Shown: piece by piece, positions 36,525-37,973 of the stretch
Layout: every line of letters begins with the position of its first letter
Position numbering within the stretch: position 1 is the stretch's first letter
Assembly (NCBI GenBank): GCA_014804005.1
Contig: JAAVAP010000018.1
Location: 109,332-173,331 of the forward strand
From: Treponema sp.
Lineage (GTDB): Bacteria; Spirochaetota; Spirochaetia; Treponematales; Treponemataceae
Length of the DNA stretch: 64,000 nt
Direction of reading: 5' to 3'
Notes under the pieces: generated by a model
Told to the model about the DNA's origin: nothing
Databases searched by the model: none
What the model saw: the letters and a program-made list of their open reading frames with translations, nothing else
Translations under genes and position numbers: made by a program

Positions 36525-36553
36525 TTGACATGCACACGCTTATGCTGTAAACT
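36525..36553 (+). promoter_or_regulatory. Promoter of poly-G lipoprotein gene
   Basis: TTGACA (36525-36530), 17-nt spacer, TAAACT (36548-36553); leader about 35 nt with GGAGG. The rest of 36402-36524 shows only further TTGTCA/TTGACG half-sites. Confidence 0.6.
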
Positions 36554-36595
36554 TGAAAATAATTTTTGAAAACATTTTTTATCTTGGAGGAAAAA

Positions 36596-37900
36596 ATGAA
36601 AAACAAATTTATGTATGGGGGGGGGGTATTAGCGACCCTCTTTTTGGCAACTCTCATCTGCTTCGCGTCTTGCGATAACGGCAGCACGTCGGGAGGAGGC
36701 ACACAAAATAGCCAATCGAGCATAAACTATTCGCTTGGAGATCCGCCTGATGAAAGCAAAAGAACTAGCGATTTTAAAGTTGAACAAAACCCTGACGGCA
36801 TATATCTCACATTTGTTATTCCGGAAAATACTGGAGCGGTTCGGGTAAGAATTGACGGAATAGGACAAGTCGCTGAAGAAGTTTACAAGGAAAGCAAAGA
36901 TAAAGGCAGTTTCTTCTATCCTTTCCTCGATCCAAATAAAACATATAAAATCCGCATAGTATTTGAAGAAGATGAGATACAGGATGGGGATGGATATTTC
37001 GTCATATCCTCAGGCGATGTTATTAACTGGTTCGAGACAGAAGTGACGGCGGGTGCAAAAAGCAAAGGGGAAGTGCGTCTGAAATACAAGGGAGACATAG
37101 AAGTTAAAAATACTGGCGATTTCAGGTTCACGAAAAAGCCAGAATTCTACGGCGAGTCGGTATTCACAAACTATGACTGGAAAGAAAATATCGGACTGGT
37201 AGAAGGAATTTCATGGGAGCACGGAGACGCTCGCAAAACAAAATGGCGCGCTCAATTCCCTATTCCAAATGCAGAGCTTACCAAATGGTGTAATTTATAC
37301 GCTGATGCCGGCACGAAAGGTTGGAAAGACAACGATTTGATAAAAATCGATTTTCTTTGCATACGTCCATGTTTGGAATACAACTACAATGGCAAACCTT
37401 ATAACTACCAATGGGAAAACTTTTTGTACGAAACTCCATATCTTAGCGACGAGACTCTGCTATGGACAACCATCGATATAAACAATCCTACAGATGTTGC
37501 GAAAATCCAAGGAACGTGGAAAATCTCGGATTACTGGGAAGAAAATTTCAATGTCGATGAAAATCATAGAATACCTTTAAAATGTGAATGTACTGAAATT
37601 GTTACTATTAATGCCCAAAATCTTCAAGATGAATTTGTCGAGATATATACAAAAATAGATGGCAGTGCATTTACAGAAGAAGAGAAAGGATATTGGGAAA
37701 ATTACATATATAAGGAGCTTAGAGATACGATAGAAGTTTCTAATTACAAGGTAATTGGAAAAATTACCGAAAACACTACGCTTTCAGAATATTTTGAAGA
37801 TAGCAAATTGAAACTTTCTAAAGACGGAAGCGAACTGCAGTCATCAGAGTGGTCTAACAAAGAAGAAGAGTATTATACCTATATCTACAAAAAGCAATAG
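36596..37900 (+). CDS. Lipoprotein of unknown function with in-frame G10 tract (phase-variable candidate)
   Basis: 434 residues from ATG 36596 (TTGGAGGAAAAA upstream). The N-terminus is a lipoprotein signal: KNKFMYGGGVLATLFLATLICFASC with Cys at about residue 25 and a relaxed spirochaetal lipobox, then a Ser/Gly/Thr-rich linker. The mature part is acidic and beta-rich with several Trp/Tyr-rich segments; no family recognised. Codons for GGG inside the signal peptide form ten consecutive G. Losing one G meets TAG two codons later; gaining one meets a TAA about 15 codons later, so tract length would switch the protein on or off. A strong terminator follows the stop. Confidence 0.75.
   Translation: MKNKFMYGGGVLATLFLATLICFASCDNGSTSGGGTQNSQSSINYSLGDPPDESKRTSDFKVEQNPDGIYLTFVIPENTGAVRVRIDGIGQVAEEVYKESKDKGSFFYPFLDPNKTYKIRIVFEEDEIQDGDGYFVISSGDVINWFETEVTAGAKSKGEVRLKYKGDIEVKNTGDFRFTKKPEFYGESVFTNYDWKENIGLVEGISWEHGDARKTKWRAQFPIPNAELTKWCNLYADAGTKGWKDNDLIKIDFLCIRPCLEYNYNGKPYNYQWENFLYETPYLSDETLLWTTIDINNPTDVAKIQGTWKISDYWEENFNVDENHRIPLKCECTEIVTINAQNLQDEFVEIYTKIDGSAFTEEEKGYWENYIYKELRDTIEVSNYKVIGKITENTTLSEYFEDSKLKLSKDGSELQSSEWSNKEEEYYTYIYKKQ
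36617..36626 (+). repeat. G10 homopolymer in signal-peptide coding region
   Basis: Ten consecutive G within codons Tyr-Gly-Gly-Gly-Val, by far the longest G run in the window. Confidence 0.95.
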
Positions 37901-37913
37901 CCTGTAAAAGCAT

Positions 37914-37940
37914 GAACGCCCGACAAATTGTCGGGCGTTC
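37914..37940 (+). terminator. Intrinsic terminator of poly-G lipoprotein gene
   Basis: GAACGCCCGAC-aaatt-GTCGGGCGTTC, 11-bp perfect stem, followed by GGCATTTCAATTTTTTC. Lies in the convergent gap and may serve both genes. Confidence 0.75.
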
Positions 37941-37973
37941 GGCATTTCAATTTTTTCAACTTGCATCGCAAAA

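Follow-up and report, generated by a model that had tools for sequence, protein, structure and literature searches.

A poly-G tract in a Treponema lipoprotein signal peptide as a probable phase-variation switch, one of a large set in its genome

Introduction

Within Treponema, most knowledge of phase variation by poly-G tracts comes from T. pallidum, in which promoter activity depends on tract length or a length-driven shift of the reading frame has been proposed (PMC3373638, PMC7864442). In this species, tprJ is transcribed only with eight Gs or fewer (PMC3373638), the tprL promoter offers a further poly-G precedent, and 76% of 17 poly-G targets vary in length (PMC7864442). In Neisseria meningitidis porA, the poly-G lies between the -35 and -10 boxes, where a 17-nt spacing is optimal (summarised in PMC7864442). 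In Campylobacter jejuni, frameshift switching acts through poly-G/C tracts, many of them in surface-structure genes and a small number in those for surface proteins and restriction enzymes (PMC8437040).

Here, we describe such tracts at large scale in an uncultured relative, starting from the window, by which we mean the whole 64,000-nt stretch of DNA that was analysed (Treponema sp., assembly GCA_014804005.1, contig JAAVAP010000018.1, positions 109,332 to 173,331, forward strand). The reading that we consider very probable is that a family of putative surface lipoproteins varies in phase through slipped-strand events, its window member being one locus in a large poly-G contingency set. Even though the mechanism itself is already known, its scale and the involvement of a Cas12a promoter are unusual. 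The family also presents a second design for the genus, that of translational switches in lipoprotein signal peptides, with paralogues found in opposite states within one assembly.

The lipoprotein gene and its G10 tract

The gene (36596..37900, plus strand; ATG at 36596, stop at 37898-37900) encodes 434 amino acids and is open in its assembled G10 state. A ribosome-binding site, GGAGG, is read at 36586..36590 (plus strand), and a promoter scan predicts a sigma-70 promoter, TTGACA-17-TAAACT, at 36525..36553 (plus strand), within an upstream region that aligns as conserved in the orthologue and paralogues discussed below. A promoter switch of the tpr type was considered for this gene and ruled out, since the spacer is fixed and holds no tract; the gene is therefore not filed with the tpr, TP0126, or porA promoter switches. 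Downstream lies a terminator-like inverted repeat (37914..37944, plus strand), for which the scan gave a long form of 12 pairs on the minus strand and one of 6 pairs on the plus strand.

The translation begins with MKNKFMYGGGVLATLFLATLICFASC, followed by DNG, and has the lipobox FASC at residues 23-26. The putative signal peptide (36596..36670, plus strand) ends at a predicted lipidated cysteine, codon 26 (36671-36673, plus strand), as expected of a bacterial lipoprotein, and is followed by the mature domain (36671..37897, plus strand). The earlier note had taken the product for an unknown, probably surface-exposed lipoprotein; profile searches of Pfam and NCBIfam returned no match to it. The AlphaFold model, built from five sequences, is poor (mean pLDDT 47). 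The residue after the lipobox cysteine is an aspartate, which in E. coli would favour retention in the inner membrane; the sorting rules of spirochaete lipoproteins differ from those of E. coli, and the protein may be displayed at the surface.

The G10 tract (36617..36626, plus strand), which the earlier note had described as encoding Gly-Gly-Gly in frame inside the signal peptide, indeed comprises Gly8 to Gly10 plus the first base of Val11. It is the only run of G or C longer than 6 in the 64 kb of the window, and as many G8 matches as the window holds were reached in 2 of 100 dinucleotide shuffles. The consequences that the same note had foreseen for one G fewer (an immediate TAG) and one G more (a TAA about 15 codons on) also hold: the open reading frame has 11 amino acids with G9, with TAT TAG directly after the tract, 434 with G10, and 27 with G11, whose TAA lies around 16 codons beyond the tract. 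A change of a single unit consequently toggles the frame between full-length and truncated, and the tract is a predicted translational on/off switch. According to the proposed mechanism, replication slippage would gain or lose one G within the signal-peptide codons; G10 (or G7) would be read through into the lipoprotein, and the remaining lengths would lead to a stop within 11-27 codons, so that no lipoprotein would be made. Slippage in the living population and the loss of the protein in the closed state are both expected under this mechanism.

Paralogues, an orthologue, and the improbable decay of the family

The mature domain is common to at least four paralogous lipoproteins, each of which would be governed by its own tract. 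The identity of this domain to that of the window gene is 47% for L124, 43% for L102, and 28% for L122, and all three carry a G9 in the signal peptide that places them out of frame. The window copy is thus the sole open member in the assembly, and slippage would alter which member of the family is displayed. A second signal-peptide pair consists of L126 (G10, open) and L116 (G9, closed).

Among 196 genomes of the genus searched for the window protein, the sister genome G367 was the only carrier besides the source; it seems to be the same as G039, the independently assembled MAG (uncultured Treponema sp., SRR14411283_bin.3) in which the orthologue L169 is found. Comparing strains had been suggested in the earlier note as a check, and L169 has G9 where the window has G10. 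It is closed, and its mature frame is kept in full to the same stop, with 85% amino acid identity over 421 codons (dS 0.32, dN 0.08, dN/dS 0.26). By this measure, the mature frame of L169 is under purifying selection, and switchability is the best explanation for a gene that selection maintains even though its assembled copy is closed. Length and frame state thus vary between genomes at related loci with an intact downstream frame. For around 24 of the tracts, the sister genome offers a counterpart; about nine of these differ in length, in a comparison between two assemblies, one of them a MAG, in which single-G homopolymer calls can err.

A decaying family, whose closed copies would be pseudogenes with incidental tracts, could account for the majority of copies being closed and for the additional in-frame TAA that L102 bears farther downstream, which indicates that switchability is not required of every closed copy. 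Nevertheless, the lesions cluster at the tract, L124 retains a 586-codon frame past it, and the selected mature frame of L169 runs to the same stop as that of the window gene, all of which makes decay extremely improbable. Phase variation, which the earlier note had thought likely, is supported by these comparisons of sequence: it would fit tracts at the same site in differing frames with mature frames intact and selected, which chance and decay fit poorly. The observed basis for preferring it consists of the tract, the frames, the states of the paralogues and the orthologue, and the selection on the mature frame.

Poly-G tracts across the genome

The earlier reading of phase variation at one locus is an understatement, since the whole genome (2.53 Mb, 31 contigs) has G runs of 8 or longer at 79 places, amounting to 76 distinct tracts once three places whose flanks repeat others already counted are removed. 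The spacing of these duplicate flanks, on contigs C1 and C26, suggests a single region held twice. By length, the distinct tracts comprise 12 G8, 57 G9, and 7 G10, against around 1.7 runs of at least 8 Gs expected per genome by extrapolation from the run-length decay of the window. In a G9-pattern screen of 39 genomes, this one gave 66 matches and the other members of the genus 0 to 27. Many of the roughly 76 tracts of G8 to G10 look able to switch genes, either through the reading frame or through the -35/-10 spacing. The assignment of tracts to classes, here and below, comes from scripts and reading rather than from curated annotation, and the lengths are those of the assemblies.

Loss of mismatch repair was considered as the cause of so many tracts and rejected: mutS (mutS1) is intact, and a general mutator is not indicated. 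As a counterpoint to phase variation, the lengths in this genome peak tightly at 9 and never exceed 10, a narrower distribution than freely slipping tracts might give. In 284 kb of fetched sequence, the run lengths are sharply bimodal: lengths 5 and 6 account for 68 and 14 runs, length 7 for none, and lengths 8, 9, and 10 for 13, 59, and 6 runs. The bases flanking the 76 tracts are also biased across coding, promoter, and repeat contexts, with a T directly 3' in 70 of them, followed by an A in 62, and a T directly 5' in 50.

At least 14 tracts lie in or adjoin lipoprotein signal peptides. Elsewhere, a G9 in feoB (L112:2002-2010) breaks the gene and separates its GTPase from its membrane parts, the sister copy (L174) being open with G8; and a C8 inside an MmeI-type restriction-modification gene (L083:2002-2009) leaves it out of frame in both genomes. 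Tracts are also found inside or adjoining glycosyltransferase genes (L094, L095, L096, and L093 on contig C23, L113, and L134), four of them falling within around 13 kb of contig C23. Three others accompany genes for sensor kinases or regulators, lying close to the 3' end or directly at it (L119:2002-2010, L092:6601-6609, and L129:2000-2008), those of L119 and L129 at kinase/regulator junctions; frame changes at these three could extend or fuse the products.

A dispersed element of about 120 nt consists of a G9, a TATAACGACCTAGG-like stretch, and a strong hairpin accompanied by a run of Ts. It has at least eight copies here (L074, L075, L076, L085, L106, L121, L128, and L132) and five in the sister genome, and an Rfam search with it gave zero matches. 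In one copy, the G9 (L075:1537-1545) lies around 180 nt beyond the 3' end of fliG; fliG1 of T. pallidum likewise has a poly-G nearby (PMC3373638). Some in-frame tracts resemble ordinary glycine codons and are probably not switches, among them that of L123, which reads as permease-like and has 98% identity between the two genomes with a G8 in each, and that of the solute-binding protein gene L070.

Promoter-spacer tracts

In six cases, a tract is flanked by perfect TTGACA and TATAAT boxes spaced by 15-20 nt. With a looser promoter threshold, 10 tracts match, where random placement in the same flanks yields 2.7 on average and 8 at most; promoter-type loci, with the tract between -35 and -10, include L125, L115, L100, and L127. 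A search of 394 genomes of the order with this spacer pattern gave 51 matches for the G form and none for its reversed control. The C form has 12 matches, four of them in this genome and six in the sister. The signal-peptide and promoter-spacer designs are both present in relatives, and contig C1 of another genome of the same family (G192) has six promoter spacers with long G runs, of up to around 16.

These placements bear on two further explanations. Homopolymer length is a recognised weakness of assembly and Ns stand close to the tracts at some loci, so that the tracts or their exact lengths might be artefacts of sequencing or assembly. Such errors would not be expected to reappear at the corresponding sites of a MAG that was assembled independently, to leave a gap at run length 7, or to fall exactly between perfect -35 and -10 boxes with reversed-pattern controls at zero. 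Although individual loci may be miscounted by one G, we regard artefact as a highly improbable account. Ribosomal or transcriptional slippage on poly-G, in turn, would let each allele give rise to an unvarying mix of products, making the length in the DNA nearly irrelevant. Poly-G is slippery for polymerases, and the tolerance of closed states would be accounted for, but this explanation leaves both the promoter-spacer tracts and the length differences between orthologues unexplained, and we deem it very unlikely. Slipped-strand phase variation is thus the reading retained here.

A poly-G tract in the cas12a promoter

An intact type V-A locus is found on contig C12 and comprises cas12a (TIGR04330 at 1183 bits, the cut-off being 300), cas1, cas4, and an array of 13 repeats. 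The cas12a ATG is preceded, at a distance of around 100 nt, by TTGACATTTTTAT-G9-TGTTATAAT, whose G9 occupies the -35/-10 spacer between TTGACA and TATAAT (L228:7628-7658 in the source genome G000, minus strand). The sister genome has the same G9 arrangement before cas12a, also as a -35/-10 spacer (contig C39; L192, L229), and a divergent cas12a in G257 is preceded by TTGACATTTTTATA-G9-CATATAAT (L266:2637-2667, minus strand). The spacing is 19 at all three promoters. The first codons of the G257 gene match those of the other two, possibly indicating shared ancestry rather than an independent origin. Over the fetched stretches of 24 cas12a loci of the genus, G or C runs of at least 6 are absent in 20, one locus has a C6, and the three described here have exactly one run, the G9.

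Another -10-like site closer to cas12a could weaken any effect of tract length. Whether the genome-wide poly-G switching, the window switch included, extends to antiviral immunity, with a phase-variable Cas12a, a switchable MmeI-type enzyme, and a mixed population of immune and non-immune cells, is a proposal that we hold to be evenly balanced. A full-text search of an open-access collection found no paper naming phase-variable CRISPR. Should switching of the Cas12a promoter prove real, stochastic on/off control of CRISPR immunity would be open to direct tests.

Comparison with known systems

One close likeness is to T. pallidum, with its poly-G tracts of around 8 or more at outer-membrane genes (the tprE/G/J/L and TP0126 promoters, and the TP0127 open reading frame). 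The window tract differs from these in lying inside the signal peptide of a paralogous lipoprotein family lacking Pfam matches, with a fixed promoter spacer. The many coding poly-G/C tracts and the frameshift design recall the contingency loci of C. jejuni; here, however, lipoprotein signal peptides form a main class, and promoter-spacer tracts are present in the same genome. These last, at L125, L115, L100, and the cas12a promoter, resemble the design of N. meningitidis porA, from which the window gene departs in that its tract is coding.
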